From a virus: a stretch of DNA of 64,000 nt. Shown one piece after another: positions 14,722-60,655 of the stretch. The stretch's first letter is position 1. Every line of letters starts with the position of its first letter. The notes under the pieces are model-generated. The model had not been told where the DNA came from and ran no database searches. It saw only the letters and a program-made list of their open reading frames with translations. The stretch lies in the IMG/VR virus record IMGVR_UViG_3300034682_000176, positions 62,001-126,000 of that record. One strand, 5' to 3'. The position numbers and the translations under genes are program-made.

Positions 14722-16647
14722 TTACGGCAGTGCTTTGATGTAGTACTCGTAGATGCCATCGTTCTTGGCTGTCCAGTCCGGCAGCTTGAACAAGGTTGGA
14801 TCAATGCCCGATTCTACAATCAAGGCAATGTAGTCGTTGGTACCTCCTCCGAACCCGGAGTAGTAGATAGTGCTTGTGATTGAGAAATACTTGATGGGAT
14901 TATTGACATCCCCATAACCCACCAACCCACCAATACAGTACACACGAGAGCTGGTCACAAACACAACTTGAGCACCGACACGGACCGGTAAAGATTGGGC
15001 GGATGTCCAGCTTCCCATTGTGCCGTCAGCATTGATGGTTGCACTGTGTACTTTTTGAGTGCCGGATGCATAAGAGACACTTCCGCCATTACCGGCACCT
15101 ATCCACGTTGATTGAAAACCAGTACCACCAATAGCATAAGCACGCTTTTGGGTCGAGACAATTCCAGCACTTTGATAACCGCTCAAACCAGTGACCGAGA
15201 ACCCCGGGTTATATGTAGACCAACCACCCAACGTCCCATCAGCATTAATGGCTGCGGAATAGCGAACATTGCCAAGAACGATGTGAACGTACGTTTTGGT
15301 TACCGAAATAATTGACAACACGGTGCTGACTGCCACCGGTACAGAACCGGCACTAACCCAGCTACCAATGGTGCCATCGGAGTTGATCGGAGCACGATAG
15401 ATAGAGCTTCGATAAGCGCTTCCATTGTACCCACCGATCATATAGACGTAGTTTTTGACTACAACCATAAACTGGCAGGAATTAGCAAATGGCAAATTGG
15501 TCGTTTTAGACCAAGCGCCAATGGTGCCATCTTCATTGATCTTGGCCATGTAGACCGAATTGAGGACAGTTTCTCCACCACTATCAGGCAAAAACGTCAT
15601 GGTGGACTGGCCGCCAAAAATGTATACGTAGCCCTTGGTCACCACCACCGATGCACTTGCTACACTAATTGGGAATGCGGAAGCCGCCGCCCAAGACCCC
15701 AACGTACCATTGGAGTTAATGGTCGTTGTATAGACTTTATTGATGGTTGCGGTATTTGAGGAGGTATCTGGACCTTGATAACCGCCGACCACATACACCC
15801 GGTTCTTGGTGACAAACGGGGTTGCGTGCGCAATAGTGATCGGGAAAGAACCAGCAGTCCCCATACCAAGACTGGTGGAGTTGTCCGTATCATTAAACGC
15901 ACCTTGTTGTGCCCAGGGTTGGCCAGCATAACCTGCCTCCCCGCCACTTCCGCCACTGGTGCTGTAAGTCAGACCAATGAGTGCAAACAGATCGGGATAC
16001 ACCGCACGCTCCACCCAAGCGCCGTTGGTGCGCAGATATTTGTCATGCGCCACGGTGTTAGGTTTGATGGCCAGGTCACCGACGTTTTGCGAACCAAACG
16101 TGCGGCTGGCAAACGAAGTCAAATAACCAAAGGTGGTGGCTTCCACTTCCGTGGTTGGAGCACGACTCAGCGTCAAGTTGTCGCTGAGTGCGGTGTTCTG
16201 GAAACCGACAGTGTTACGGATGTATGGGGTGGTGTTGGTAGTGTAACCATCCACACCGGTAGGGCGATTCTTGATCTCGCTGAAAGACAGCGATGGCAAG
16301 GCATTGTCTTGGGAGATGGGAAGGCCTGCGATGATCTGACCTTTGGCATTGACGGTGACACGGCTGTAGCTGCCGGATGCACCGACAGGACGCAAAACCA
16401 CCTGCGTCTTGTTATACAGACATACGTCACCATCGATGCCATCGGCAATCTTGTCTATCGGCACCACCCCACCTGTGATGTTTTCTACCGAAAGGTTGTA
16501 GGGGAAGTTATCGACGTAGTTCTTGGTGGCAGCTTCATTGGCAGTCATCGGCAAACGTGCCAGTGTCAAGTACCCCACCATGGTAAACCCTTCCAGCACC
16601 ACGCTTCGATCAAAAATGCCGGAGTTGGTAAACAACTTGATTTTCAT
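14722..16647 (-). CDS. Tail fibre / receptor-binding protein 1 with six-repeat propeller
   Basis: 641 residues from MKIKLF, the start shared by the paralogues; ATG 16653 two codons upstream is possible but sits against the AGAAAG site. The N-terminal 200 residues are the conserved fibre base (EAATK.YVD; Y-S-R-V-T-V-N-A-K-G). A collar-domain first half (YLRTNGAWVERAVYPDLFAL) is followed by six repeats of about 50 residues with V-T-K-x-x-V-Y-x-x-G-G and I-N-x-D-G-T-x-G-x-W, a Kelch-like beta-propeller. The collar second half (FKLPDW...YEYYIKALP) closes the protein. It shares a 76-base identical block with the next paralogue. Role: host recognition, inferred. Confidence 0.8.
   Translation of the reverse strand: MKIKLFTNSGIFDRSVVLEGFTMVGYLTLARLPMTANEAATKNYVDNFPYNLSVENITGGVVPIDKIADGIDGDVCLYNKTQVVLRPVGASGSYSRVTVNAKGQIIAGLPISQDNALPSLSFSEIKNRPTGVDGYTTNTTPYIRNTVGFQNTALSDNLTLSRAPTTEVEATTFGYLTSFASRTFGSQNVGDLAIKPNTVAHDKYLRTNGAWVERAVYPDLFALIGLTYSTSGGSGGEAGYAGQPWAQQGAFNDTDNSTSLGMGTAGSFPITIAHATPFVTKNRVYVVGGYQGPDTSSNTATINKVYTTTINSNGTLGSWAAASAFPISVASASVVVTKGYVYIFGGQSTMTFLPDSGGETVLNSVYMAKINEDGTIGAWSKTTNLPFANSCQFMVVVKNYVYMIGGYNGSAYRSSIYRAPINSDGTIGSWVSAGSVPVAVSTVLSIISVTKTYVHIVLGNVRYSAAINADGTLGGWSTYNPGFSVTGLSGYQSAGIVSTQKRAYAIGGTGFQSTWIGAGNGGSVSYASGTQKVHSATINADGTMGSWTSAQSLPVRVGAQVVFVTSSRVYCIGGLVGYGDVNNPIKYFSITSTIYYSGFGGGTNDYIALIVESGIDPTLFKLPDWTAKNDGIYEYYIKALP
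16061..16136 (-). repeat. 76-base identical block, copy 1
   Basis: Identical at every position to 18001-18076 in the neighbouring fibre gene, although sequences just outside it differ. It codes for the segment before the collar domain, which points to recent gene conversion. Confidence 0.85.
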
Positions 16648-16706
16648 ATCCATTCTTTCTACAAAGTACAAACGTCAGCTTGTCGATATTATCGAGTTGA
16701 ACTGCT

Positions 16707-16716
16707 TCAAATAGTT
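16707..16716 (-). promoter_or_regulatory. AACTATTTGA element before fibre 1
   Basis: Exact copy 60 bases before the start at 16647 and 11 bases past the preceding terminator. Confidence 0.6.
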
Positions 16717-16726
16717 AACGTACACA

Positions 16727-16760
16727 CACCCACACACTGCCAAACAGCAGTGTGTGGGTG
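16727..16760 (-). terminator. Terminator after fibre 2
   Basis: 14-bp perfect stem (16747-16760 with 16727-16740, loop 6), 7 bases past the stop at 16767. Confidence 0.65.
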
Positions 16761-16766
16761 CAGTGA

Positions 16767-18587
16767 TTACGCTGTAGCTTTAATGTAGTACTCGTAAATC
16801 CCATCTTTTTTGGAGGACAGATCAGGGAGTTTGAACTTGGTTGTGTCGTAAGACCACTCGGTCATGACAGTAAGGTAATCGTTAGTGCCGCCATTAAACG
16901 GTGTAGAGTAAACCGCCTTAACGATGGTGCTGTTGTTGTTGCCATTAATAATAATCAACCGGTTTTTAACGACCGCCGCTAAAAAAGCCCATGCCGGATA
17001 AGGTAAAGTGCTGCTACTTAGTGTCCATGACCCTAATACACCGTTGCTATCAATCGGGGCGTAGTAGATTGTATTTAGAGAGTAAGTTCCATCAAAACCG
17101 CCTAAGATGTACGCCATACTCTTAGTGACAATATATCTGGGACTAAAATTGATGTTGGGAAAATTAGGCATAGTAACCCATGTTCCAATACTGCCGTCTG
17201 CATTGACCGGTGCACGAAACACGGTGTTGGTGTAAAATGAACCGGTTTTAATTCCACCAATCAAGTAAATGTAAGAAGAGGTCAAAATGGGGCTACCGGC
17301 TGCCAACCCGTACGGTAAGGTAGTGCCAGCAGTCCAGCTACCAATGGTCCCATCTACGTTAATGGCTGCGCTATAAGTGCGATCTGACTTAGTTCCGTTT
17401 GACGTTGTAAACCCTAGGATGTGAACACGGTTATTGGTTGCTACAACCGTTGCATCAAAAATAGGCTCTGGAAACGTGCCGTAATTGCTCCAGCTGCCAA
17501 TGGTGCCGTCTGCGTTGATAGGGGCACTTAAAATGGTATTAATGTAATTGGTACCATTATTACCTCCCATTAGGAACAATCGGTTCTTAGTCATAAAGAC
17601 TGCCGGGGAATAAACTGCGCCAGGTAGCGAGCCAGCTACTGTCCATGCAGATGGTGTCCCATCCGCCGCAAGCGTGGCAGTGTAGATGGTCTGCGTGGCT
17701 ACAACTGCGTTAGTAAGTACACCACCCAGGGTATACATGCGGTTTTTGGTAACAATTAACTTAGAACCCCAAAGCTCTACAGGTAGAGAGTTTGGCAGCT
17801 GTGTCCAGGTAAACGTTGTAGGGTTTGTTTGTTCGTTGAGTGTTCCTTGCTGGACCCACGGCTCACCAGTAGCAGCTACAGGTATAGAGATAGGCACTAG
17901 TCCATACTGATCACCAATGGCACTGTAGAGTGTTTGGTAAGACGCCCTATCCAGTGTGGCACCGTTAGCTCGCAAATACTTGTTGTGAACAATGGTGTTG
18001 GGTTTGATGGCCAGGTCACCGACGTTTTGCGAACCAAACGTGCGGCTGGCAAACGAAGTCAAATAACCAAAGGTGGCAACTTCGGCACCAGCTGTTGGAG
18101 CACGAAACAAGGTCAGCGCCGAGCTGAACGCTGTGTTGTTGACATTGGCTGGTGTGCGGATATAGTTGGTGGGTGCTGCGGCATAACCGTCCACAGTGGT
18201 TGGTCGGCTCTTGATCTCTGAGAACAACAGAGAAGGGTCGGCGTTGTCCAGGTACACTGGGATGCCCGACACAATCTGGCCTTTGGAGTTGACTGTCACC
18301 CGACTGTAGCTGCCGGCCGCACCCACAGACTTCAAAGCCGTCTGGGAGGCATTGTAGGTGACAACGTCACCGGAGATTCCAGCCCCAATACGTTCGTAAC
18401 GAACTGGACCGCCAATAATTGCGTCTACCGACAGACCATAGGGAAGGTTGTCGACATAGCGCTTGGTGGCTGCTTCATTAGCAGTCATGGGGTTGCGCGC
18501 CAAAGTCAGATGCCCCACCATGGTGAAGCCTTCCAGGACCACGCTGCGGTCAAAGATACCAGAATTCGTGAACAGCTTGATTTTCAT
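16767..18587 (-). CDS. Tail fibre / receptor-binding protein 2 with six-repeat propeller
   Basis: 606 residues; AAGAGG precedes the ATG. It has the same architecture as fibre 1, and the first 45 residues differ from fibre 1 at only a few positions. The repeats carry the signatures LAADGTPSAW, INADGTIGSW, INVDGTIGSW, VNADGSIGTW and IDSNGVLGSW, plus a first divergent blade. The propeller surface loops differ strongly from the other copies while the base and collar are kept, as expected for alternative receptor specificities. The end is FKLPDLSSKKDGIYEYYIKATA. AT content of the propeller is higher than in the base, a sign of faster change or separate origin. Confidence 0.8.
   Translation of the reverse strand: MKIKLFTNSGIFDRSVVLEGFTMVGHLTLARNPMTANEAATKRYVDNLPYGLSVDAIIGGPVRYERIGAGISGDVVTYNASQTALKSVGAAGSYSRVTVNSKGQIVSGIPVYLDNADPSLLFSEIKSRPTTVDGYAAAPTNYIRTPANVNNTAFSSALTLFRAPTAGAEVATFGYLTSFASRTFGSQNVGDLAIKPNTIVHNKYLRANGATLDRASYQTLYSAIGDQYGLVPISIPVAATGEPWVQQGTLNEQTNPTTFTWTQLPNSLPVELWGSKLIVTKNRMYTLGGVLTNAVVATQTIYTATLAADGTPSAWTVAGSLPGAVYSPAVFMTKNRLFLMGGNNGTNYINTILSAPINADGTIGSWSNYGTFPEPIFDATVVATNNRVHILGFTTSNGTKSDRTYSAAINVDGTIGSWTAGTTLPYGLAAGSPILTSSYIYLIGGIKTGSFYTNTVFRAPVNADGSIGTWVTMPNFPNINFSPRYIVTKSMAYILGGFDGTYSLNTIYYAPIDSNGVLGSWTLSSSTLPYPAWAFLAAVVKNRLIIINGNNNSTIVKAVYSTPFNGGTNDYLTVMTEWSYDTTKFKLPDLSSKKDGIYEYYIKATA
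18001..18076 (-). repeat. 76-base identical block, copy 2
   Basis: Partner of 16061-16136. It lies in the same relative position of the paralogous gene. Confidence 0.85.
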
Positions 18588-18632
18588 AACAGACCTCTTG
18601 GAGCAAAATAGGGTATGGCGTTGTCGCGCTTA

Positions 18633-18642
18633 TCAAATAGTT
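18633..18642 (-). promoter_or_regulatory. AACTATTTGA element before fibre 2
   Basis: Exact copy 46 bases before the start at 18587, extended to AACTATTTGATAAG. Confidence 0.6.
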
Positions 18643-18651
18643 CTTGATCAT

Positions 18652-18687
18652 GACACCACCTCAGCGCCAAAACGCTACGGTGGTGTC
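18652..18687 (-). terminator. Terminator after fibre 3
   Basis: 9-bp outer stem (18679-18687 with 18652-18660) plus an inner AGCG/CGCT stem. It begins 7 bases past the stop at 18694. Confidence 0.6.
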
Positions 18688-18693
18688 GTTCAT

Positions 18694-20493
18694 TTACGGC
18701 AAAGCACGGATGAAGTATTCCAGCGGACCATAGGTCTTGTCGCTGTGGTCAGGCAGTTTGAACTGCGAAGTTGGGTTGATTGTGTTGGACAAGATCACAG
18801 CAATGTAATCATTCACACCCCCAAGGAAAGGTGTTTGATAAACAGTTGACACTGTAGTGTTGGCGTCCGAATACCCACCAAGAAGATAGATATACCCATT
18901 AGTCACGACAGCTTGACCGCCGTGTTGAGGACTTGGGAGATTAGTCCCCAACGACCAACTACCCAGTGTGCCATCGGTGTTGATTGGCGCAGTGTAAACG
19001 GTGTTTTTGCTGGTGTTGGCGCTATACCCACCCAAAATGTATACACGACTCTTGGTAACGATAGGTTGTGTGTGACTGACTGGAATTGGGAAAGAACCTG
19101 CCGAACTCCAACTACCCAGTGTGCCATCACTATTCACAAGTGCAGTGTAAATCACACTCAGAGATCCGTTGGCGTCTTGTCCTCCAATCAGGTACACCCG
19201 GTTCTTGGTCGTGACCACAGAGGCATTGCGAATGAAGTAAGGGAAATCGGGCTCAATCACCCAAGACCCCAAACTACCGTCCAAGCTAATCGGTGCGCTG
19301 TAAACCGCTTTAGTGTGTCCAGCATTGTTAGAACCTGCCAGCAGGTACGCCCGCTTTGTGGTCACAACAAGCTGTGCGTGAGCAAGCTCTTTTGGAAGTG
19401 AGGGACCGGTCACCCAACTCCCTAACGTTCCGTCGGCGTTGATGGGCGCATAACGAACTGCAGAAATGGTGGTAGTACCGTCGTACCCACCCAGCAAGTA
19501 CAACCGATTTTTGGTGACAAATGCCTGGGTCGCATACAAAGGTGTCGGCAGACTTGTTTCCAACTGCCAGCCAACCAAAGTGCCGTCTGGATTGAGCATG
19601 CTGCTGTAAACACCGGCACCAGTGCCAGAGCCTGAGTAATACCCCAACAGGTACACACGACTCTTGGTAACTACTGCTTGTGAGGAACCTACGGTAATAG
19701 GTAAATTGGTGCTGGGACTCCAGGTCAAACTTGCGGAGTTGGTCTGGTCGTTGAATGCGTACTGCTGGCGCCAAGGCTGACCCATGAACCCAAGAGGGTC
19801 GATGCTGTAAGTATCTCCAATGATCGCGTACAGTGCAGCGTAGGTGGTTTTGCTGATCACCCCGCCATTAGCACGCAAGTACTCAGCACCAGCAACACCA
19901 ATCGTAGAGATCTTCAGACTGCCGACTGGAGGGCGACCTACCATACCAGCAGTCTTGCCAGCGACATAAGCTTGCGTTGCCACGTGGTTAGGCAGTGTGG
20001 GTGTGACTTCACTCAGCAGGTTGCCGTCGATCTCGACATTGCTGTTAAAACCATTGGTCTTAATGGCATACCCCGAGGCGTCACCAATGTACCCTACAGT
20101 TGTTGTAGGACGGGCAGTGATGTTGGTAAATGGAAGGACCAACGGACCGCCGCCAGGTACTTGTTGGGCAGCTATCACACGGCCTTTCTCATTGACCGAA
20201 ACACGGTTGTAGACACCAGGCTGCACACCAGTGGACGACAGGTACACGTCTGTGCCGTTGAAGCCGACCAGATCACCACCGATACCGCCGATCAAATTGG
20301 CTTTGCGGATGGGTTTGCCGGAAATCATGCTGGCATCAAACACCGTTGGAAAACTGTCCACGTAACGCTTGGTCGCTGCTTCGCTGACGCTTTCGGGGTT
20401 GCGGTACAAGGTCAAGAAATCAAGGAGTGTGAAGCCATCCAGAAAGACGTTGTTCTGGAGAATGCCGTTGCTGGAAAAAAGTTTGATTTTCAC
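18694..20493 (-). CDS. Tail fibre / receptor-binding protein 3, GTG start
   Basis: 599 residues. The conserved VKIKLF start corresponds to GTG at 20493; no ATG is available at the paralogous position and the longer in-frame extension is absent from relatives. The base has EAATKRYVD and Y-N-R-V-S-V-N-E-K-G. Collar halves are EYLRANGGVISKTTYAALYA and FKLPDHSDK...LEYFIRALP. The propeller has six repeats, five carrying N-x-D-G-T/S-L. The initiator difference may lower its translation relative to the others. Role in host recognition is inferred from architecture. Confidence 0.8.
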   Translation of the reverse strand: MKIKLFSSNGILQNNVFLDGFTLLDFLTLYRNPESVSEAATKRYVDSFPTVFDASMISGKPIRKANLIGGIGGDLVGFNGTDVYLSSTGVQPGVYNRVSVNEKGRVIAAQQVPGGGPLVLPFTNITARPTTTVGYIGDASGYAIKTNGFNSNVEIDGNLLSEVTPTLPNHVATQAYVAGKTAGMVGRPPVGSLKISTIGVAGAEYLRANGGVISKTTYAALYAIIGDTYSIDPLGFMGQPWRQQYAFNDQTNSASLTWSPSTNLPITVGSSQAVVTKSRVYLLGYYSGSGTGAGVYSSMLNPDGTLVGWQLETSLPTPLYATQAFVTKNRLYLLGGYDGTTTISAVRYAPINADGTLGSWVTGPSLPKELAHAQLVVTTKRAYLLAGSNNAGHTKAVYSAPISLDGSLGSWVIEPDFPYFIRNASVVTTKNRVYLIGGQDANGSLSVIYTALVNSDGTLGSWSSAGSFPIPVSHTQPIVTKSRVYILGGYSANTSKNTVYTAPINTDGTLGSWSLGTNLPSPQHGGQAVVTNGYIYLLGGYSDANTTVSTVYQTPFLGGVNDYIAVILSNTINPTSQFKLPDHSDKTYGPLEYFIRALP

Positions 20494-20562
20494 GTCTGTC
20501 TCGCTTTCGGTTAAAGAGCAATCGATGAGGAGGTAACCAGACGGCTTAACAGTCTGGATCAA

Positions 20563-20572
20563 TCAAATAGTT
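20563..20572 (-). promoter_or_regulatory. AACTATTTGA element before fibre 3
   Basis: Exact copy 70 bases before the GTG at 20493 and 7 bases past the preceding hairpin. Confidence 0.6.
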
Positions 20573-20578
20573 AAAGAA

Positions 20579-20611
20579 ACCAGAGCTAGGGCATTGTGCC
20601 CTAGCTCTGGT
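20579..20611 (-). terminator. Terminator after fibre 4
   Basis: 15-bp perfect stem (20597-20611 with 20579-20593) and a 3-base loop. Confidence 0.65.
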
Positions 20612-20624
20612 CTATTGGACTGGT

Positions 20625-22424
20625 TTATTCCACCGCACGGATGAAGTATTCCATAACGCCATTTTTCAGGCTGGAGTAGTCAGGCAGTTTGAACTGCGTT
20701 TCATCTGGGACAAAACTGCTGATCAACGCCATGTAATCGTTGGTACCACCATTGAACGGGGTGCTGTATGTCGAGTTGATGTAAACCGAACCAGACCACC
20801 CTCCCAACAGGTAGAACTTGTTATTGACACACGCCCCTTGAGTTGCGGCCAACGCTACAGGCAAGGTACCCATCGAGCTCCAAATCCCCAGGCTGTCGTC
20901 CAAATTGATGGGGATGGTGTAGATTGACGTAATGGTTGCGGAATAACTCGCGCCACCCATAAAGTAAATGCGATTGCGAGTAGCAAAGGCATATGTGCAG
21001 TACGCAGCAATCGGTAGCTCCGGCCCGGTTGACCACGCACCCAGACTTCCATCAGCATTAATGGGAGCTGTGTACACCGTACTGATCGGGGCTGAACCAC
21101 TAAATCCGCCCAATAGATAAACACGGGTTTTGGTAACGATGGCTTGGGAGTTTGAAACACCGACCGGCAGACTTGTCGAACTGGTCCAGGCACCCAAGGT
21201 ACCATCCACGTTGATCGGGGCTTTGTAAACATTACCCACAAAAGTCGAACCGTTATACCCGCCAAGAAGGTAAACAAAGTTCTTGATAACAACAGGGCTG
21301 GACGACGCCAGACCTTGTGGAATGTTACCAGCACCAGACCAGACACCAATGGTACCATCGGCATTGATCGGAGCAGTGTAGATCTTGGATGTCACGCTGT
21401 ACAAACCTGTACCGGCACCCATGATATAGACACGGTTTTTGGTGATGATCACGTTGGCTTGGGTCAACACTTCTGGCAGTGGTGTAGCACTAGCCCAACT
21501 CCCTAGCGTGCCGTCTGCGTTGATCGGAGCAGTGTAGACGGCGGAAGTCCAAGTTGAGGTGGTAGTGCGACCACCCATCAGGTAGATGCGATTGGTTGTC
21601 ACGACGACAGAGCTGTCAGTCAAGTTGATAGGCAGTGACGTGCCTTGGGTAAAAGTGAAGCTGGTGGAGACATTGCCATTGAACGCATACTGCTGGCGCC
21701 AAGGTTGTCCCATGTAGCCTTCCGAGTTTTGATTGTTGTACGTGTCGCCAAGGACTGCGTATAATGCTGGGTAAGTGGTTTTGCTGAGCACACCGCCGTT
21801 GGCACGCAGGTACTCTGGACCACGGATTGCAGCAGTGGAGATCTTCAAGTCACCCACACGGATCTTTGGAACCATCGCACCAGCCTTCTGGTTCAGGTAA
21901 GAGCGCGTGGCAGCATGTCCACTGGTGGTGGGTGTCACACTTGTGTAAAGGTTGTCTGTAAGTGTCAAATTGCTGTTGATCCCGTTGGTTCGCACTGCAT
22001 AGCCGGACACATCATCCACATACCCCGATGCATTGACTGGGCGGTCGATAATGTTACCAAAATGCAACACCGAAGAACCACCGTAGGTCTCAGTGGTAGC
22101 GGCGATAATACGACCCTTGGCGTTGACGGTGACGCGGTTGTAAGAGCCGGGTTGAATACCGACACCCGACAGGTATGCGTCAGTCCCATTGAAACCGGCC
22201 AGATCTCCACCAAACCCACCCAACAGCAGAGCCTTCGGAATCACAGAACCGTTGATTTGGTTGACGTTGAACGTACTGGGGAAACTGTCAGCGTATCGCT
22301 TGGTAGCAGCTTCTTGGGGACCGTCTGGGTTGCGGTACAACGTCAAGAAATCCATCAAAGTGAACCCGTCCATGATCACGTTGTTTTGGAAGTTGCCGCT
22401 GTTAGAGAAAAGTTTGATTTTCAT
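20625..22424 (-). CDS. Tail fibre / receptor-binding protein 4 with six-repeat propeller
   Basis: 599 residues. Base: residues 1-200. Collar first half: 205-230 (EYLRANGGVLSKTTYPALYA). Propeller: about 250-565, with five I-N-x-D-x-x-L/I-G-x-W signatures and one divergent first blade; one repeat has NLDDSLGIW in place of N-x-D-G. Collar second half: about 575-599 (FKLPDYSSLKNGVMEYFIRAVE). The base is closest to fibre 3 (GFTLxDFLTLYRNP). No clear Shine-Dalgarno site is seen before the ATG, unlike the neighbours, so expression may be lower. Host-range role inferred. Confidence 0.8.
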   Translation of the reverse strand: MKIKLFSNSGNFQNNVIMDGFTLMDFLTLYRNPDGPQEAATKRYADSFPSTFNVNQINGSVIPKALLLGGFGGDLAGFNGTDAYLSGVGIQPGSYNRVTVNAKGRIIAATTETYGGSSVLHFGNIIDRPVNASGYVDDVSGYAVRTNGINSNLTLTDNLYTSVTPTTSGHAATRSYLNQKAGAMVPKIRVGDLKISTAAIRGPEYLRANGGVLSKTTYPALYAVLGDTYNNQNSEGYMGQPWRQQYAFNGNVSTSFTFTQGTSLPINLTDSSVVVTTNRIYLMGGRTTTSTWTSAVYTAPINADGTLGSWASATPLPEVLTQANVIITKNRVYIMGAGTGLYSVTSKIYTAPINADGTIGVWSGAGNIPQGLASSSPVVIKNFVYLLGGYNGSTFVGNVYKAPINVDGTLGAWTSSTSLPVGVSNSQAIVTKTRVYLLGGFSGSAPISTVYTAPINADGSLGAWSTGPELPIAAYCTYAFATRNRIYFMGGASYSATITSIYTIPINLDDSLGIWSSMGTLPVALAATQGACVNNKFYLLGGWSGSVYINSTYSTPFNGGTNDYMALISSFVPDETQFKLPDYSSLKNGVMEYFIRAVE

Positions 22425-22490
22425 AGTGACATCGCTTTCTAGTCAAAAGAGGGAACAAATAACCTTGTCGGGTAAATCGTTCAAGGTTTA

Positions 22491-22500
22491 TCAAATAGTT
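22491..22500 (-). promoter_or_regulatory. AACTATTTGA element before fibre 4
   Basis: Exact copy 67 bases before the start at 22424, directly after the long palindrome at 22507-22542. Confidence 0.6.
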
Positions 22501-22506
22501 AGTGAC

Positions 22507-22542
22507 GTAGAGTCAGAGTAGCCTAGGCTACTCTGACTCTAC
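22507..22542 (-). terminator. 36-base near-perfect palindrome after fibre 5
   Basis: 17-bp arms (22507-22523 and 22526-22542) separated by only two bases. It lies 7 bases past the stop at 22549 and could form a very stable hairpin or a cruciform. Confidence 0.65.
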
Positions 22543-22548
22543 TGGCGA

Positions 22549-24372
22549 TTAATTAGCCGCGCAAATGAAGTATTCCAAAATACCGTTGGTCAAATTGGAG
22601 TAGTCCGGCAGCTTGAAGCTGGTGGTGGGGTTGAAAATGTTTCCGGCAACAGTCACAACGTAGTCGTTGGTGCCACCGGAGAACGTATAACTCGTGGTGG
22701 TGGTCAGCGCAGTACCGCTGGGGTTGTATCCACCAATCATGATCATGCGGCTGTTGGTGACAACAGCCTGGCCGTACGCCATACCGCTGGGCAAGGCTGT
22801 AGATGTTGTCCACGTACCCAAGGTGCCGTCGGCATTGATGGGGGCGGTATACACAGTCGTCAGGGCACCGGTGTTGGTTGCAGCTCCGCCAATCAGGTAC
22901 ACCCGATTGTTGGTCATGACCGCTTGGGCAAACGCCACGGCCGAGGGCAGCGAAGTGCCAGTAGTCCAAGCACCCAAGGTGCCGTCAGCGTTAATCGGAG
23001 CGGTGTACACCGCAGAAGTGTGGGTGGCGGAAGTCACCGCACCGCCAAGCACATACACCCGGTTCTTGGTGATGACAGCTTGGGAGCCGTTCAAGACACC
23101 TGGCATATCTGCTGCAGAAGTCCAGGCACCAATGATACCGTCGTCATCGATCGTGGCAGTGTAGACCTTCTTGGAGTAACCGACGGCATCCAAACCACCC
23201 ATCAGGTAGATGCGGTTGGTGGTCACGACCACACTTGCGCCGCAGACACCGGCAGGCAGCGAAGTGCCATCTGTAAAAGCACCGATGGTGCCATCGGCGT
23301 TGATGGTTGCCCAGTATGTGGTAGGTGTGAATTGGGAAGGGGAGAGTGCACCACCGATGAGGTACAACTTGTTCTTGGTCATGACAACCGTGTGTCCGCA
23401 ACGCGCGCTGGGGATGGTGCCAGCGCCAGCCCAGGTACCAACGGAGCCATCGGCGTTCAAAGGTGCGGTATAGATATTGGGGGTGTAGGTGCTGTTAGCA
23501 ACAACGCCACCGAACATGTAGATGCGGTTTTTGGTCACTGCGGCCTGGCTCCACCACAGAGCTGCCAACAAGTTGCCACCAGCTGTCCATGCACCGGAAG
23601 TGCTGTTGTTAACGGTGTTAAACGCGTACTGCTGACGCCATGGTTGCGCCACATAGCCAGTTGTACCGCCCGCCCCACCGCCACTGCTGAACGTGTCTCC
23701 GATGACAGCGTACAGCGCGGCATAAGCCGTTTTGTCCAGGACTGCCCCGTTGGCACGCATGAAACGTGTGCCGGCGATGCTGGGTGTCGAAATCTTGAGA
23801 TCACCGATCTTGGCACCAGCACTCATGTTTGCCATTTTGGTTTGCAGGTATTGCTGGGTCGCGGCATGGGTGTCCACCGTGGGCTGGGTGTTCACCATCA
23901 GGGTGCCAGTCAGACTGATGTCCGAATTGGTACCGTTGGTCTTTATGGCGTACGGCGAAACATCGGCGATGTAACCGCCAGCGGTTGTGGGTTTGTTGGT
24001 GATCGAGTTGAAACTCAGTTGCTGGGTGCCACCTGTGTCGGTGTGTGCGGCAGTAACACGACCCTTGGCATCCACCGTGACTTTGTTGTAACTACCTGCG
24101 GTGATACCCATCGACTTCAGAAACAGATCGGTGCCATTGAAGCCGATCAAATCACCGCCAACACCACCTACCAGACGTTGTTTAGGAATGGTGTCTCCGA
24201 CGATTTTGCTGACGTCGTAAGTTGTCGGGAGTTTGTCCACGTAGCGCTTGTTCGCAGCTTCGTTGGAGAATTCTGGGTCACGGTACAGGTTGAGGAAATC
24301 CAGCAGCGTGAAGCCATCCACTTCGACGACGTTATCTTGAGCACCGCCTTGGGGGAAGATTTTGATTTTCAT
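22549..24372 (-). CDS. Tail fibre / receptor-binding protein 5, first of the array
   Basis: 607 residues; AAAAAGGTG precedes the ATG. Its N-terminus is the most divergent of the five (MKIKIFPQGGAQDNVVEVDG) but keeps FTLLDFLNLYRDP and NKRYVD. Collar halves are RFMRANGAVLDKTAYAALYA and FKLPDYSNLTNGILEYFICAAN. The propeller has six repeats with regular I-N-A-D-G-T signatures, and its DNA is more GC-rich than in fibres 1-3, so it may be the longest resident. It is the promoter-proximal gene of the array and faces the + gene at 24538. Confidence 0.8.
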   Translation of the reverse strand: MKIKIFPQGGAQDNVVEVDGFTLLDFLNLYRDPEFSNEAANKRYVDKLPTTYDVSKIVGDTIPKQRLVGGVGGDLIGFNGTDLFLKSMGITAGSYNKVTVDAKGRVTAAHTDTGGTQQLSFNSITNKPTTAGGYIADVSPYAIKTNGTNSDISLTGTLMVNTQPTVDTHAATQQYLQTKMANMSAGAKIGDLKISTPSIAGTRFMRANGAVLDKTAYAALYAVIGDTFSSGGGAGGTTGYVAQPWRQQYAFNTVNNSTSGAWTAGGNLLAALWWSQAAVTKNRIYMFGGVVANSTYTPNIYTAPLNADGSVGTWAGAGTIPSARCGHTVVMTKNKLYLIGGALSPSQFTPTTYWATINADGTIGAFTDGTSLPAGVCGASVVVTTNRIYLMGGLDAVGYSKKVYTATIDDDGIIGAWTSAADMPGVLNGSQAVITKNRVYVLGGAVTSATHTSAVYTAPINADGTLGAWTTGTSLPSAVAFAQAVMTNNRVYLIGGAATNTGALTTVYTAPINADGTLGTWTTSTALPSGMAYGQAVVTNSRMIMIGGYNPSGTALTTTTSYTFSGGTNDYVVTVAGNIFNPTTSFKLPDYSNLTNGILEYFICAAN

Positions 24373-24433
24373 AGTTACACCTTTTTACCGCGTGATGAAA
24401 AATGATCCAAAGTACCTTGCGGACAGTACCTTA

Positions 24434-24443
24434 TCAAATAGTT
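24434..24443 (-). promoter_or_regulatory. AACTATTTGA element before fibre 5, without a preceding terminator
   Basis: Exact copy 62 bases before the start at 24372. No - strand gene or hairpin lies upstream here, so the element is not simply a terminator tail. This favours a promoter role. Confidence 0.65.
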
Positions 24444-24537
24444 CCATCATAAAACCCCCACCCTTCATTATGAATGTCACGCACTGGCTGATTTTGTGAT
24501 ATCTATTTGCCCGTGATAACCCAATAAGGATACCGCC

Positions 24538-25203
24538 ATGGCCAACCGTAAAAAAGCCGAAGCACTGATCTTGCAGTACGTCAACGAGATTGAACCCACT
24601 GGCTACAACGCAAAGTGCTACGAGAAGATCTTTGCCGAAATGTCGGACAAGGATTTCCATGAGTACATGAAAGACTTGCGAGACGGCAAGAAAACCCTGG
24701 TGATGTTTAAACCCATGTACGAAGCCAAGGGGATCACCGTAGAGAACAACCTGGAGCTTGGCAAGAAGTACGGTTTAAACTTCTTCGAGCGCTTGAAGTT
24801 CACGGACAACCCCAATGAACCCGATCACATTACACCGATTGAATACATGGTAGTTGATCTGCCCTGGCGCAAGCAGTCGCAAACAGCTGCTAAGAAGATC
24901 AGTGTGCCGGACAACAACAAGACCATTGACCAACTGACGTTCCAACCCACTGGGGCGTCCAAGGGCTCAAAGGTCTCGTTCCCTGAATTACAGGTGATGA
25001 TCGGTATGGGGTTGGATGAGTCGATCAAAGAGCTAACCCAAGTGCGAGGTGGTGACCGCGGCAGCTTCTCCGCATACAACGCCATGTTTGCACGCTACGG
25101 CAATGTCAGCCTCAAATCCATCGACCAGTACGCCACCGGTGTGGAGTCCACCCGCACCCTCAAAACGTACTTGGCTTGCATGCACATCACTTCAACCTTG
25201 TAA
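24538..25203 (+). CDS. Protein resembling the C-terminal end of RNA polymerase beta (RpoB)
   Basis: 221 residues; AAGGATACCGCC precedes the ATG. Residues about 100-218 follow the order of the last 100 residues of bacterial RpoB: an EYMVVDL strand, then QPTGASKGSKVSFPELQV (RpoB: QPLGGKAQFGG...FGEMEV), then a helix with IKEL, a G-D turn, a Tyr-containing helix, and a final S-T-R-T-L-K-T-Y-L helix. The N-terminal 100 residues are unassigned. If real, it is either a subunit of a split phage RNA polymerase or a mimic that binds host polymerase. The match is by eye and remote; the function is inferred. Confidence 0.45.
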   Translation: MANRKKAEALILQYVNEIEPTGYNAKCYEKIFAEMSDKDFHEYMKDLRDGKKTLVMFKPMYEAKGITVENNLELGKKYGLNFFERLKFTDNPNEPDHITPIEYMVVDLPWRKQSQTAAKKISVPDNNKTIDQLTFQPTGASKGSKVSFPELQVMIGMGLDESIKELTQVRGGDRGSFSAYNAMFARYGNVSLKSIDQYATGVESTRTLKTYLACMHITSTL

Positions 25204-25215
25204 CCACTTTCTGTT

Positions 25216-25998
25216 ATGACCGATAAGACCAACAAGATCTACGTGGATCTACCGTCGCTGTTTGATCTGCGTCACAGTGCTTTGTTCCAGATGCTGGATG
25301 AAGAACCGTTGTTGGAGCTGGTATCGTCCCACCGGTACAACCTGCGTGAAAGCGATGTCATCGAAGGTATTGACAACCAGCTGTTCCAAGCCTATCTGGC
25401 GACCGACGATCTGCGCCTGTGGCACAGTGCCCCCATGACTTACATTCAGGTGGCACTGGCCAGCAAGGTCAAAAACATCGAGCGACGCAACTCGTTCATG
25501 GCCGAGTCGAGCGAACCCGAAGTGGTGCTCAATGTCTACCCGTTCCAATGCACAGGACAGATGGCGGAGCTGATCCAAAACGCCTTGTTCCTCAAGCTTG
25601 GCAGCTCTTGCACCGTCAACATCGTGCACGAACACCCAAGAGGTCTCACCCCTCACTTTCTCAAAAACAGCGGGTTTGTGGCGTGCTTCATGTACGATCT
25701 ACACAACTGGCTGCAGTACCACGCTAAAACAGTGCAAAACGCTGACCTCAAAGAGGTCATGATGTACTTTGCCGCAATCTACAAGACCCCTCCGACCAAG
25801 GAAGATATCAAGATCTTCACCAAACTGGGGTTCAAGGATGTGTTCAGCTACACCGAATACCTGTTTACAGGCCGGATGCAGCTGAACTTTTTACCGGTGT
25901 TTATGTACAGCTCCCTGGTGACGGCAACTGTCTTCTTGAAAGCCAATGAAGATGCGTTGAAACCGGATTCCAGTGAGGTGGTGAAGGATCGCTTATGA
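25216..25998 (+). CDS. Unknown 260-residue protein
   Basis: It starts 12 bases after the RpoB-like gene with no strong ribosome site, and its stop overlaps the next ATG, so the three genes form an operon. It is mixed alpha/beta, with helical stretches (LKEVMMYFAAIYKTPPTKEDIK) and aromatic segments, and no enzyme motif or membrane helix. Operon position beside a possible transcription protein is the only functional hint. Confidence 0.8.
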   Translation: MTDKTNKIYVDLPSLFDLRHSALFQMLDEEPLLELVSSHRYNLRESDVIEGIDNQLFQAYLATDDLRLWHSAPMTYIQVALASKVKNIERRNSFMAESSEPEVVLNVYPFQCTGQMAELIQNALFLKLGSSCTVNIVHEHPRGLTPHFLKNSGFVACFMYDLHNWLQYHAKTVQNADLKEVMMYFAAIYKTPPTKEDIKIFTKLGFKDVFSYTEYLFTGRMQLNFLPVFMYSSLVTATVFLKANEDALKPDSSEVVKDRL

Positions 25999-27944
25999 AC
26001 ATGCCGACCAACATCAGCAAGAACCGGCTGAAGTTTACCGATGATGAAAACAAGGTTTTTGTCAAGGACTTGAGCGAGCTGATTGACAGCACGCCGGTTA
26101 ACGATGCCAAGGCCTCGGCACAAGAGGTCAGCGAAACCGCGCTGGCAAAGTTTGCCGATATGTCGGCACTCAAGAGCTTACAGTCTCCCATGGGAGACAT
26201 CACCCAGTCACTGTCCTCAGGCGACGCCGCATCACAGATGTTGGCTTCTATGAACAAGTCCGTTCCGACCGCTTTGCCAGATATGCGTTCTGTGACCGCT
26301 ACAGTCTCGGGGGTGTTTGGTAGTGGTCAAGCCCAAGCGTCCAATCTGACACAGTCGATGATGGGTTCTATCAACCAAAGCCTGAGTCAGGTACCAGCCA
26401 GCATTGGAAAAGTTGACCAGCTGTCTTCGGGGGTAAAAAGCTACCTGTTGAAAAACTCGGTCGCCGACTATGCACGCTCGGGGTTGGGGTTGATCACCCA
26501 AACCGTGGTCAGTGCAACTGCGATCTTGCAGGCTACCAATGCTCTTCGCCAAGGTGTTGGTCAAGCAACCCAATCGGTGATGGCTGCCAAACAGCGGTTT
26601 TCCCCTACACCGCACCCACAGTCCTACAACCTGTCCCACATCACTTCCCAAACCAACGCCCAACGCATCATGGAAACACTCAACAACCCAGCCGGCGCAC
26701 CAATCACGGAAGTTGGAACGACTTCGCAGCTGTTGCCAGTTAGCAGTCCAGATGGAATTTCTCCAGCAGCGCCAGAACCTACCCTGTCGTTGCTCTACAG
26801 CAACCACGCTTTGTTGGTGTTGATGGGTGGCATCACCTGGTACCGCAGCCTGTACACCTACATGTTCAAGGAGCTGCAACTCACCCATTTGGCACACACC
26901 TACGGCTTGGCTGAAGACCACTACGCCATGCTGTCGTTGCAAGGCACGCCACTGCAAGACGAGCAGCTGCGCAACTTCCAATCGCTGATCATCGCTAACA
27001 CACCCGACAACCCAAGCAAGAACTTGTTCGTGTACAACCAGTTCCAAACGGTACTGGCATACCTGACGCAAGACTTGCCTACCTTGCCTGACAAGTCTCG
27101 CATCTATGCAGTACTGGCTTACATTGGTCAGTTGCTTCCGGTGATCCCACTCAAGGATCTGGTAACAGAATACGACTACAACCGTCTGAGCAACCAGGTG
27201 GCCCGTGAGGTCGTGACTGCAGCCAGTGACACCTATAGCGAGCTCAGTCCTGAAGAATTTGGACAGATCTACCGAGACTCGTTCAAGCTTTTGGTGACAG
27301 ACGCCATTGTGGCACACCGTGGCCAGAACCAAAACGATGGTTCTGTGAAGTTTGCGGAGTCGAGCAGCAGCATTGCGCTGTACTGTGGCGTGTGGCTGAT
27401 GCGTGAACTCTTGTTGGGGTGGATCAAGACCACTGACCCACAGGCCCGTGAACGTTTGGTGACTGCGCTGGCGGCTATCTATAACACCCAGATCGACCAG
27501 ATGGAGTTTGCGTATACCGACTTTCACGAGTTGGTGCAACAAGGTCTGCCTGTCTACTACCAACCTAACACCAAGGCGTTCAGCCAGTTGGGGTTTGTGT
27601 TCATCAAGCACTACCACCTCAACCGTACGGAAATCTTCAAATCTCGACAACACCTGCTTCAAGATGAAGAGAAGATGGCGTTTGACGCACTGGCCATGCG
27701 GCTCGATGCTCTGATTGAAAACCCACTGCCGCAACTGCAAGCGATCTTGGAGGTCGACGCACCTTTCAGCTCGATCGCGCTGTCTGAAGAACTTTTGGAG
27801 CTGGGGCGGGTGTTTTCACACGCCATGATCAGTAATCGCCGCCTGGTGTTGGATGCTTTCAGTTTCCCAGCACGCACCTTCGAGCGCTACTCGGCTTCGG
27901 TCGAGCAGCTGTACTACGACAACAACGTGGCTGTCATGCGTTGA
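25995..27944 (+). CDS. Unknown 649-residue protein with low-complexity N-terminal half
   Basis: ATG overlaps the previous stop (ATGA), and GAAGGA lies 6 bases upstream. Residues about 60-250 are Ser/Ala/Gln/Thr-rich with repeated short helices (MMGSINQSLSQVPASIGK), resembling the C-terminal part of the baseplate spike protein at 31307. Residues about 265-649 are a large helical domain with many Leu, Tyr and Phe. No catalytic motif is visible. A virion role (tail or baseplate) is plausible from composition and size only. Confidence 0.75.
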   Translation: MNMPTNISKNRLKFTDDENKVFVKDLSELIDSTPVNDAKASAQEVSETALAKFADMSALKSLQSPMGDITQSLSSGDAASQMLASMNKSVPTALPDMRSVTATVSGVFGSGQAQASNLTQSMMGSINQSLSQVPASIGKVDQLSSGVKSYLLKNSVADYARSGLGLITQTVVSATAILQATNALRQGVGQATQSVMAAKQRFSPTPHPQSYNLSHITSQTNAQRIMETLNNPAGAPITEVGTTSQLLPVSSPDGISPAAPEPTLSLLYSNHALLVLMGGITWYRSLYTYMFKELQLTHLAHTYGLAEDHYAMLSLQGTPLQDEQLRNFQSLIIANTPDNPSKNLFVYNQFQTVLAYLTQDLPTLPDKSRIYAVLAYIGQLLPVIPLKDLVTEYDYNRLSNQVAREVVTAASDTYSELSPEEFGQIYRDSFKLLVTDAIVAHRGQNQNDGSVKFAESSSSIALYCGVWLMRELLLGWIKTTDPQARERLVTALAAIYNTQIDQMEFAYTDFHELVQQGLPVYYQPNTKAFSQLGFVFIKHYHLNRTEIFKSRQHLLQDEEKMAFDALAMRLDALIENPLPQLQAILEVDAPFSSIALSEELLELGRVFSHAMISNRRLVLDAFSFPARTFERYSASVEQLYYDNNVAVMR

Positions 27945-27965
27945 GACTTACTTTAGGAGCAACCC

Positions 27966-28202
27966 ATGCAGTTGAACCATGTGCGATTGAACTTGCCGAC
28001 GCAAGTCACCCGAACTGCTGTGACCACCGGTAACTCGCTGCGTATCGACGCACAGCTGGATTCGGAAGTCTTTCAGCAAATCTACAAAGACAAAATCGCC
28101 AATCCCGGACTGTCCGAGGAAAAAGCGATTGCGTTGTCTATCCAACCCAAACAGTCGCTGCCGGCTGTGCACGACTTGTTGCTGCGCCATCTACGGGCAT
28201 AA
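27966..28202 (+). CDS. Small unknown protein (78 residues)
   Basis: TAGGAGC precedes the ATG. The first half is strand-like (VRLNLPTQVTRTAVTTGNSLRI), and the second half is helical with an EVFQQIYKDKI helix and basic end. It closes the operon that begins at 24538, just before a bidirectional terminator. It has no recognised motif. The size would suit a small DNA-binding or assembly factor, but nothing confirms this. Confidence 0.75.
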   Translation: MQLNHVRLNLPTQVTRTAVTTGNSLRIDAQLDSEVFQQIYKDKIANPGLSEEKAIALSIQPKQSLPAVHDLLLRHLRA

Positions 28203-28206
28203 GGAC

Positions 28207-28241
28207 CACACCACCACACTCCTTGCGGGTGTGGTGGTGTG
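28207..28241. terminator. Bidirectional terminator between convergent operons
   Basis: 13-bp perfect stem (28207-28219 with 28229-28241). It lies between stops at 28202 (+) and 28248 (-). Confidence 0.75.
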
Positions 28242-28247
28242 CGTCTG

Positions 28248-28652
28248 TCAACGCAGGTCTTCAGGCAGTTCAGGAACGTCGGTACGTAAGATCAACTCAC
28301 CGGGAGTGACTGTGCTGCCAGACGGTGTGTACACCGGGGCTTCGGCGTTGAGGGTCAACGGTACGGGTGCAGCTGGAGCACCACGGTTTTGGTGCAACTC
28401 CAACATCAGGCTGCGCAGCAATTCCTTGCTTTGTGCCGCATCCTTGGCGCTGTCATCGTCAATCCGCAGTTTGGTGCGACCCAAGATACTGCGGTCGATA
28501 CTTTCCAGCAAGTTGGTGGTGGCCATCAACTCAGCCGGTTTTTTAGGCAGTTCCGTATCAGGTTTACCCATGATGTTTTCTGCCAAACGCAAGCGCATTG
28601 CCTGCGTTTTCTCCAAAACCGTCAAGTCTTCTGGCGTAAAGGTTCCGCTCAT
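28248..28652 (-). CDS. Unknown 134-residue helical protein
   Basis: Last gene of a three-gene leftward operon, 2 bases after the previous stop. The N-terminal 90 residues are helical and charged (DAAQSKELLRSLMLELHQNRG), and the C-terminal 45 are Pro/Thr/Val-rich and probably extended. The size and helical character could fit a small terminase-type or scaffold protein, but no specific signature is visible and I do not assign it. Confidence 0.8.
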   Translation of the reverse strand: MSGTFTPEDLTVLEKTQAMRLRLAENIMGKPDTELPKKPAELMATTNLLESIDRSILGRTKLRIDDDSAKDAAQSKELLRSLMLELHQNRGAPAAPVPLTLNAEAPVYTPSGSTVTPGELILRTDVPELPEDLR

Positions 28653-29312: not shown

Positions 29313-29999
29313 TCACTTTCGCACGTGGTTTTCGAGTTTGTTGGGAGTCTTCTCTTGGTGGACCAAAGCGCTCACCAAGCTCTCATCGAAGTAGTTGCCA
29401 GCCAGCTTCGAGAGTGTCGACAGTGTGGAGTAGCGCACATCCATCAGATCTACAAAGGTGTATTCTTCACCGGGTTTCAGTCGGTAGAAGACGCCCTTGT
29501 TCTTGAGCAGACGGGTGATAAAGCTGACCACCACTTCGTTACTGACCAAGTTGGCACCCAGGTTAGAAGCTGCGTATTGGACCATGTTGTCCAAGATCCG
29601 GCACAGATCTTCATAGGTCAGGAACCACGGCACCTTGCCTTGCATGAAGTCGGCGTCAAAGAAGTTGTACGACAGGAACGAGTGTTGGATCACTTTCTCA
29701 CTCTCGATGATGCGGTCACCCTTGCCATAACGCAACTGGATGTATGGCTCTCCAAAACGCTCCACTTCCGTGATCAAAATTGGCGCAGTCACCAACACGG
29801 TTGGGATGACCGACACCGAGTACTTGTTGCCGCAGTGGATCGAGAAGATGCCGTACAGGTATGTGTTGTCGGCAATGTCGAACATCTGCTTGTCTTGGTA
29901 CCACTTGGGAAACTCGATGTTGACCGGCTCCTTACAGTAATACGCACCGTCTTTGAGCTCGACGATCGAATCCATGAAGTCTTTGTCACGTGCAAACAT
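29313..29999 (-). CDS. Unknown 228-residue protein, first of a leftward operon
   Basis: AGAAAGA lies 5 bases before the ATG. The N-terminal half is rich in aromatic strands (GAYYCKEPVNIEFPKWY, YLYGIFSIHCGNKYSVSVIP), and the C-terminal half is helical. No active-site motif is visible. It is followed closely by the genes at 28655 and 28248. Structural role suspected from composition and context. No family recognised. Confidence 0.8.
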   Translation of the reverse strand: MFARDKDFMDSIVELKDGAYYCKEPVNIEFPKWYQDKQMFDIADNTYLYGIFSIHCGNKYSVSVIPTVLVTAPILITEVERFGEPYIQLRYGKGDRIIESEKVIQHSFLSYNFFDADFMQGKVPWFLTYEDLCRILDNMVQYAASNLGANLVSNEVVVSFITRLLKNKGVFYRLKPGEEYTFVDLMDVRYSTLSTLSKLAGNYFDESLVSALVHQEKTPNKLENHVRK

Positions 30000-31306: not shown

Positions 31307-33145
31307 ATGGATACCTTTACCCAACAACCTGAACAAGACACCCGCAAGCTGGAAAAACCCAGTGACTTGAGTGGGTTAAAGTTCTTCTCAATGGCGGTGG
31401 TGGCCCGCACTCCTAAAAACCACCCTTCGGCTGTCATCGAAGTCACCCCCATTGAATCCTTGTCAATCCAAGACACAGGACCGGTGGCAAAGAAAGACAC
31501 GACTTACCGCCAGACCCACCAAGAGGCCAGCGGTAAGTACGACTCTCAAAAAGACGTCACCAAGAACAACATCATCGAGGCAGAGTGGTTGCCGTTGTCC
31601 GACAGCAACCGTGATACCCCGCCTTGTGTGTACCAGGACGAAAGCGTCATCCTGTTTAAGTATGGGGACGTGCAAAAGTACTACTGGGCGACCATCAAAC
31701 ACCAACCAGAGCTGCGACGCAAAGAGATCGTGCGCTGGTCGGCATCCAACGAGACTGCACCCCTGGTGCCTTATACCCGTGACACCTCGTATTTCTTCGA
31801 GATGAACGCCATCGAAAAATGGTTGCATGTGGCCACACCGGTCAACGGTGAAGGTGTGGCGTACCGCCTGTTGATGGACGTGGGTAAGAGCCAGCTGGAT
31901 GTCTCGGACAACCAAGGCAACAGCATTGTCATTCAATCGGTATCTGGCAAGTTGACTATCACAGCCAGAGACGACATGGATTTTAATGCAGGCAAGAGTT
32001 TCAATTTCAATGCCCCACTTTTTAACGTCAACTCCCCTGACGTCAAACTCAATGGCGAAACAGCTGTCAGCAAGGGTTTGAAGATTGCCAACGGAATTGC
32101 TGTCGCAGGTGGTGGTGGCGGTAAGGCTGCTGTCATTGGTGGTGACTTGGCTGTTGTTGGTAACTTCCAAGCCCGCAACATCCTGACAAATTCGGTCACG
32201 GAAGGCGGCGTTGGTTCTGTGGACGTTCCCAAGGCAGCGATCCAAAACCAAGCCGCAGCAAGCACTTCGGCACCCTTCGGCCCAACAGCCTCATCTGCGT
32301 CTTCTGCTCCTTCGGCGATTCAAGCCCCTGTGTCCCCATCGGTCCAGATGGATAAGAATGTCGTCTATGACAATGCCACCACTGTCAACAAAGCACCCAC
32401 GGTGCTGACTGGAGACAAGGTCCTTGACGCTCCCAAACTGGCCACTGGCATAGTCCCTAAGAGCGTGTCGTTCAATATGCCCGACATCTCTTCACTCAAA
32501 GAGACTGCCTCTAAACTGGCCAGCCCTGGCATCCAGCTCGGCTCGCTCGGTATGGGTGGTTTGTCAGGACTGGCAGACCAAGCCCGTTCTCTGCAAAACA
32601 CCGTTGGATCAACCATCTCTGGAGCTACAGGTGCTGCTTCTTCCATCATCCAACAAGGTCGTGCGACCGTGATGGACCCCATCAATGCAATCACCCGTAC
32701 TGTCAGTCTTGGCACGTCTTCGGTCATCAACATGATCCAAAGCCCGACCTCAGGCTTTGTCAACCAAGTCAATGGGTTCTTGCAACCCATCAACAACCTG
32801 TCACGCTCGTTGGGTGGCAAGGGTCTGGGCTCCATGACCCAACTGAACGCACTGACTGACAGTGTTTACAAGACCACTGGTAAGATCTACAACATCAACA
32901 ATGCGGTAGGTTTGCAAGTCAGTCGGTTTACCACCCCTATCAACAGCTTGACTTCTCAAGCTGGCAGCGCTATCAACACCGCTGGTTATGCGGCTGTGAA
33001 TGTGACCGACCCGCTGCGGGTTGCAACAGACACCATCAGCACGACCCAAAGCTCTGCCCAGTCCGCCAAAGCCCAGCTGGAAGCTTTGGCCACCCATTCG
33101 TCCGGTGTATTTGGTAGTCAAAAAACCCTGGACGAACTGCTTTGA
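31307..33145 (+). CDS. Baseplate spike / gp5-like puncturing protein
   Basis: 612 residues. The N-terminal 150 look like an OB-fold collar (DESVILFKYGDVQKYYWATI). Residues about 195-300 have the short-period beta-helix style of phage spikes: QLDVSDNQGNSIVIQS, GKLTITARDDMDFNAGKSFN, then AVAGGGGGKAAVIGGDLAVV. T4 gp5 has these parts plus a lysozyme domain, which is absent here. The C-terminal 290 residues are Ser/Thr/Ala/Gly-rich with amphipathic repeats and match no known spike tip. It would sit at the centre of the baseplate and pierce the outer membrane. The assignment rests on pattern only. Confidence 0.6.
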   Translation: MDTFTQQPEQDTRKLEKPSDLSGLKFFSMAVVARTPKNHPSAVIEVTPIESLSIQDTGPVAKKDTTYRQTHQEASGKYDSQKDVTKNNIIEAEWLPLSDSNRDTPPCVYQDESVILFKYGDVQKYYWATIKHQPELRRKEIVRWSASNETAPLVPYTRDTSYFFEMNAIEKWLHVATPVNGEGVAYRLLMDVGKSQLDVSDNQGNSIVIQSVSGKLTITARDDMDFNAGKSFNFNAPLFNVNSPDVKLNGETAVSKGLKIANGIAVAGGGGGKAAVIGGDLAVVGNFQARNILTNSVTEGGVGSVDVPKAAIQNQAAASTSAPFGPTASSASSAPSAIQAPVSPSVQMDKNVVYDNATTVNKAPTVLTGDKVLDAPKLATGIVPKSVSFNMPDISSLKETASKLASPGIQLGSLGMGGLSGLADQARSLQNTVGSTISGATGAASSIIQQGRATVMDPINAITRTVSLGTSSVINMIQSPTSGFVNQVNGFLQPINNLSRSLGGKGLGSMTQLNALTDSVYKTTGKIYNINNAVGLQVSRFTTPINSLTSQAGSAINTAGYAAVNVTDPLRVATDTISTTQSSAQSAKAQLEALATHSSGVFGSQKTLDELL

Positions 33146-33240
33146 TTTCAACTTTTTAGGCAAAGGGGTATGTTGTGCGATAGCACGCATATCTCTTGCT
33201 TATACCGATAGCAATCACAACGACCATAGAGAGAATTCAG

Positions 33241-60295: not shown

Positions 60296-60304
60296 GCAAG
60301 ACAC

Positions 60305-60345
60305 TCCTGATACCTAGGGTTTCCTAGGTATCAGGATGTTTTTCA
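60305..60345 (+). terminator. Terminator after protein C
   Basis: 14-bp perfect stem (60305-60318 with 60323-60336), loop GTTT, then TGTTTTTC. Confidence 0.8.
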
Positions 60346-60367
60346 ATTACACATATACGCTGTGAGA
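60346..60367 (+). promoter_or_regulatory. TTACATATATAC-type promoter-like element
   Basis: ATTACACATATACGCTGTGAGA, 31-52 bases before the ATG at 60398 and directly after a terminator. Confidence 0.55.
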
Positions 60368-60397
60368 ACAATGTTGTTTTCGTAAAGGAGCTTCATC

Positions 60398-60655
60398 ATG
60401 AATCAATCCAACATCCAATTCAACTCCAAGCGTGCACCTGGCTCGGTCGTTGTGACCAAAAACGGTGAACCTATAGCCATGATTGTCAAGTGCACCAGCG
60501 ACAACTCGTCCAAGCTCAAGAAAGGCGATTGGTTTGCCGTTGCTACCACCTTGAATGAACAGCTGCGCGACCAGATCACGGCTGTGCCTTTTGGTACGTA
60601 CGACAGCGTCAAGGACCAGGTGACCAAAGTGCTCACGCAAGGGGATGCATCATGA
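60398..60655 (+). CDS. Unknown 85-residue protein
   Basis: AAAGGAG precedes the ATG. The N-terminal half has APGSVVVTKNGEPIAMIVK, a strand-turn-strand shape also seen in Phd-type antitoxins, but the rest does not fit that family. The C-terminal half is helical. Its stop overlaps the next ATG (ATGA), so it forms a two-gene coupled unit with the zinc-finger-like protein, read from an early-type promoter element. No function assigned. Confidence 0.7.
   Translation: MNQSNIQFNSKRAPGSVVVTKNGEPIAMIVKCTSDNSSKLKKGDWFAVATTLNEQLRDQITAVPFGTYDSVKDQVTKVLTQGDAS

Follow-up and report, generated by a model that had tools for sequence, protein, structure and literature searches.

The window analysed here is a stretch of 64,000 nucleotides that corresponds to positions 62001–126000 of a 224,810-bp virus record, and the genome was searched family by family. 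The gene under study lies on the + strand, starts with an ATG at 24538, ends with a TAA stop at 25203 and encodes a protein of 221 residues; a ribosome-binding-like AAGGA is present about 10 nt 5' of the ATG. Two antisense open reading frames that overlap the gene (24385–24660 and 24825–25085) were taken as chance. The gene, its conserved motif and two nearby genes are given below in window coordinates.

24538..25203, + strand: gene for the 221-aa protein, almost certainly the beta-C subunit of the virion RNA polymerase (vRNAP), ortholog of phiKZ gp149, 201phi2-1 gp233 and SPN3US gp218 (phrog_3233, tblastn, match to RpoB profile and fold)
24943..24987, + strand: codons of the motif Q-P-T-G-x-S-K-G...S-x-P-E (residues 136–150), counterpart of E. 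coli RpoB Q1257–E1272 (invariant columns and RpoB alignment)
25216..25998, + strand: phiKZ gp147-like gene, phrog_3328 (weak gp147 match, E 3e-4)
29313..29999, − strand: beta-prime C gene, ortholog of phiKZ gp176 and SPN3US gp244, 228 aa (phrog_2926 and gp176 match; match in the record at 91319–91975)

The 221-aa protein matched phrog_3233 ('RNA polymerase beta subunit') with an E of 3.4e-76 and over the full length, residues 1–221 aligning with positions 2–222 of the profile. Homologs were found by tblastn in 275 phage records, and in 273 of these the match spanned 80% or more of the protein. The identities were all below 60% (best ∼44%), and the commonest sources were phages of Pseudomonas, Erwinia, Salmonella, Vibrio, Serratia, Aeromonas and Klebsiella, with record lengths of 218–322 kb among the matches listed. 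The protein is orthologous to phiKZ gp149 (33.6% identity, E 1.6e-39), with which it shares a similar length (221 versus 224 aa), homology from end to end, membership of phrog_3233 and a gp147-like gene downstream. Relatives of the latter gene lie directly downstream of gp149-like genes in most of the retrieved loci; in phiKZ itself, however, the gp148 gene is situated between those for gp149 and gp147, and none was seen at the present locus. A second ortholog is 201phi2-1 gp233, whose record notes a virion protein by mass spectrometry that is similar to phiKZ gp149; the records of both proteins carry the annotations RNAP beta and head or virion protein. SPN3US gp218, likened here by its published description, is a virion subunit of 222 aa with the same assigned role in a phage whose genome encodes a five-part vRNAP, and is listed as vRNAP beta-C (PMC5105663). 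In the 221-aa protein the Q136–E150 segment reads QPTGASKGSKVSFPE. The motif described by the earlier note is real, and seven of its positions (Q136, T138, G139, S141, K142, G143 and E150) do not vary across an alignment of 65 relatives.

Relatedness to bacterial RpoB was assessed by profile comparison. Residues 1135–1342 of E. coli RpoB, read from MG1655, were aligned with 32 other proteobacterial RpoB tails (n = 33), and this profile was compared by hhalign with that of 12 phage homologs. The comparison yielded a probability of 92%, a score of 50.4 and an E of 5.1e-7 (the value for a database of one), and the match was collinear over 166 columns, from residue 9 to residue 186 of the phage protein. 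The top score after permutation of the columns of the RpoB profile was 25.2 (n = 200). A merged alignment of 74 sequences scored 34.8 versus a permuted maximum of 29.6 (n = 100 permutations). With only the 65-sequence IMG/VR alignment, the E was 0.009. Changing the alignment alters the strength of the match and leaves its register unchanged; the similarity to the RpoB C-terminus greatly exceeds chance expectation. The likeness had originally been placed at residues 100–218. The resemblance was confirmed, but not these limits, as the hhalign match starts around residue 9. Because the N-terminal half matches too (SDKDFHEYMKDLRDG pairs with SDEEVMRLAENLRKG, E. coli about 1165–1180), most of the 221-aa protein is RpoB-like and of RpoB ancestry. 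With the bacterial region (E. coli beta about 1135–1342) the phage protein shares the collinear profile, the fold of the C-terminal part and the Q-P-x-G...K...E motif, whereas it differs in being a separate polypeptide, with about 16–17% identity, and in falling under Pfam detection. The 221-aa protein had no Pfam match of any kind, the Pfam scan of 65 relatives likewise yielded no RpoB domain, and searches of PDB sequences with the single sequence and with profiles of 12 and 65 sequences gave nothing credible (best E 0.17–0.28, unrelated proteins). An RpoB tail missed by Pfam had been picked out by reading of the sequence alone.

An AlphaFold model was built from the 65-sequence alignment. 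The mean pLDDT was 77.7 and the pTM 0.41, and residues 111–150 were poorly modelled (pLDDT 55–63). The top match in Foldseek was the beta chain of the AR9 non-virion RNAP (nvRNAP; best E 5e-3, which is weak), followed by bacterial RpoB chains. All 50 of the 50 Foldseek matches listed were beta chains of multisubunit RNAPs; the same was found for the 50 matches listed by VIA-align, here aligned at the C-terminal end. In the latter program residues 140–221 superposed on the extreme C-terminus of RpoB (for example Thermus 1028–1101 and E. coli 1264–1339) over 74–76 residues at 2.0–2.5 Å, with a Z of about 8, a value that is not decisive by itself. The structural match is nevertheless weighty because every listed row represents the same RpoB region, in the order predicted from the sequence.

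The search of the 224.8-kb record for further RNAP fragments retrieved both a vRNAP and an nvRNAP set. The genes for all four vRNAP partners (beta-N and beta-prime N, M and C) are present in the same genome as that for beta-C. In addition to the beta-prime C gene given above, the following polymerase genes are relevant here (record coordinates).

217299–221687: beta-N, phiKZ gp178 ortholog
173120–174727: beta-prime N, phiKZ gp180 ortholog
59571–60878: beta-prime M, phiKZ gp80 ortholog
26414–28486: nvRNAP beta-C, gp71-73 ortholog, in a PHROG other than the phrog_3233 of vRNAP beta-C

The beta-prime C protein is 24.9% identical to phiKZ gp176 (E 3.6e-20) and belongs to the same family, phrog_2926 (E 1.6e-42); its gene was found once in the genome. 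In SPN3US, the phiKZ gp176 homolog gp244 has been designated as the beta-prime C-terminal subunit that had been missing (PMC5105663). Because this gene lies inside the window, the previous statement that no other RNAP piece is seen there is wrong. The gp178-like beta-N protein aligns to RpoB 514–1111, albeit with a weak score (E 0.02), and beta-C starts at about 1138; this placement would suit a division of beta shortly ahead of beta-C, at a score too low to establish it. The nvRNAP set in the record comprises orthologs of gp55, gp68, gp71-73, gp74 and gp123, and the nuclear-shell protein chimallin is encoded in the same genome (phrog_4795, E 2.6e-53). With chimallin, two multisubunit RNAPs and a genome of more than 200 kb, the phage is a nucleus-forming jumbo phage (Chimalliviridae).

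The presence of two polymerase sets raises the question to which of them the 221-aa protein belongs. The nvRNAP beta-C proteins (AR9; phiKZ gp71-73) derive from the same region of RpoB, and the AR9 nvRNAP beta chain being the top match in Foldseek shows that the non-virion homolog is similar in fold. They have a different split site, however, and include more of beta, are part of a separate paralogous set and do not occur in the virion. The structures that turned up in the literature searched were all of nvRNAPs. Assignment of the 221-aa protein to the nvRNAP is very improbable, since a separate nvRNAP beta-C, in a different PHROG, is encoded in the same genome and the orthologs gp149, 201phi2-1 gp233 and SPN3US gp218 are found in virions. 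When the beta-C family was compared with the gp71-73 ortholog of the same genome (a two-sequence profile), no match was obtained; the paralogs may be too distant from each other, or the two-sequence profile too thin. In principle, a stand-alone RpoB tail could also act as a mimic that binds and remodels the host RNA polymerase, which the fold would permit and which was otherwise only a general idea of the earlier note. The occurrence of all four vRNAP partner genes in the genome and the recovery of the ortholog gp149 together with the phage vRNAP make such a function exceedingly improbable; the host-RNAP-binding role and the nvRNAP assignment were both considered and rejected. The chance that the protein has an unrelated fold and is a virion structural protein with a fortuitous RpoB-like pattern is negligible: several database records do carry the name 'virion structural protein' and Pfam gives zero RpoB hit, but the profile score is twice the best permuted score and the structure searches uniformly match RNAP beta.

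We conclude with high confidence that the 221-aa protein is the beta-C subunit of a phiKZ-type vRNAP. The proposal of a split-off RpoB C-terminus from a multi-part RNAP of the phiKZ type is borne out by the profile, the structure and the partner genes in the genome. The remark that a separate RpoB tail would be unusual outside such polymerases was apt as to type, but within the phiKZ group the subunit is common, with hundreds of phiKZ-like records.

In bacterial RNAP the corresponding segment begins past the catalytic beta barrel and ends with the C-terminal anchor, which packs on beta-prime at the clamp base. By analogy, beta-C would complete the active-centre cleft and join the beta and beta-prime pieces at the clamp base, and it would form one multisubunit enzyme with beta-N, beta-prime N, beta-prime M and beta-prime C, each of them encoded by a gene of its own. 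The assembled vRNAP would contain no homologs of alpha, omega or sigma, in line with reviews that describe the vRNAP core as five polypeptides without alpha, sigma and omega homologs (PMC7598289; PMC13282480). For the relatives, precipitation from infected cells recovered phiKZ gp149 with gp180, gp178 and gp80, and early in infection the phiKZ vRNAP and the injected DNA co-localise (PMC10612078). In a beta-N mutant of SPN3US, gp218 is lost from the virion along with all other vRNAP subunits (PMC5105663). Carried over from these relatives, the protein of the present phage would be located in the virion, associate with the counterparts of gp180, gp178 and gp80, and function in early transcription. 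The vRNAP would be packed in the capsid and injected with the DNA, and its transcription of the early genes would precede formation of the phage nucleus.

The beta-C gene assigns the window to a nucleus-forming jumbo phage of the phiKZ type that has full sets of both phage RNAPs. The split RNAPs of phiKZ-type phages are of interest as enzymes, but earlier work has already described this phage group, the division of its polymerase and the subunit itself; the gene adds a new ortholog to a known subunit family in phages of a known type and is ordinary for phiKZ-type jumbo phages. The new genome contributes an ortholog that is divergent (no more than about 44% identical to members of the phage collection) and of help for alignments.

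Locally, only one thing could be called unusual, namely how near the beta-C and beta-prime C genes lie to each other: they are ∼4.1 kb apart on opposite strands, whereas about 24 kb separates them in phiKZ. A limited tblastn search (E 1e-3, flanks up to 5 kb) detected no beta-prime C homolog in the retrieved loci of other relatives. That the two genes were brought together in this lineage because co-expression of the vRNAP clamp pieces was selected for seems very unlikely to us, and a chance rearrangement is the likelier origin of their closeness. The gene order also differs for a UvsX-like recombinase, the phiKZ gp152 ortholog (33196–34677, + strand; match at 33286–34665, 38% identity, E 3e-87). 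It lies ∼8 kb downstream of the gp149 ortholog, in contrast to its upstream position in phiKZ, 201phi2-1, Goslar and others; its placement relative to the beta-C gene is a local rearrangement.

A few other genes around the locus were recorded. The 649-aa open reading frame at 25995–27944 (+ strand) has no PHROG or Pfam match and, among the compared loci from elsewhere, was present only in L002, a contig with an identical beta-C. The 612-aa protein encoded at 31307–33145 (+ strand) matches the baseplate assembly family phrog_3216 with residues 21–235, and a long Ser/Ala/Gln-rich stretch follows outside this match. On the other side of the beta-C gene, 14722–24372 (− strand) holds five consecutive tail-fibre-like genes of similar build, each for about 600–650 aa. 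Their products have a Phage Tail Collar domain (scoring under Pfam's cut-off in the fifth protein) and, at the C-terminus, a beta-propeller of the Kelch type; this tandem array of five fibre genes with Kelch tips has the look of a locus for host recognition.
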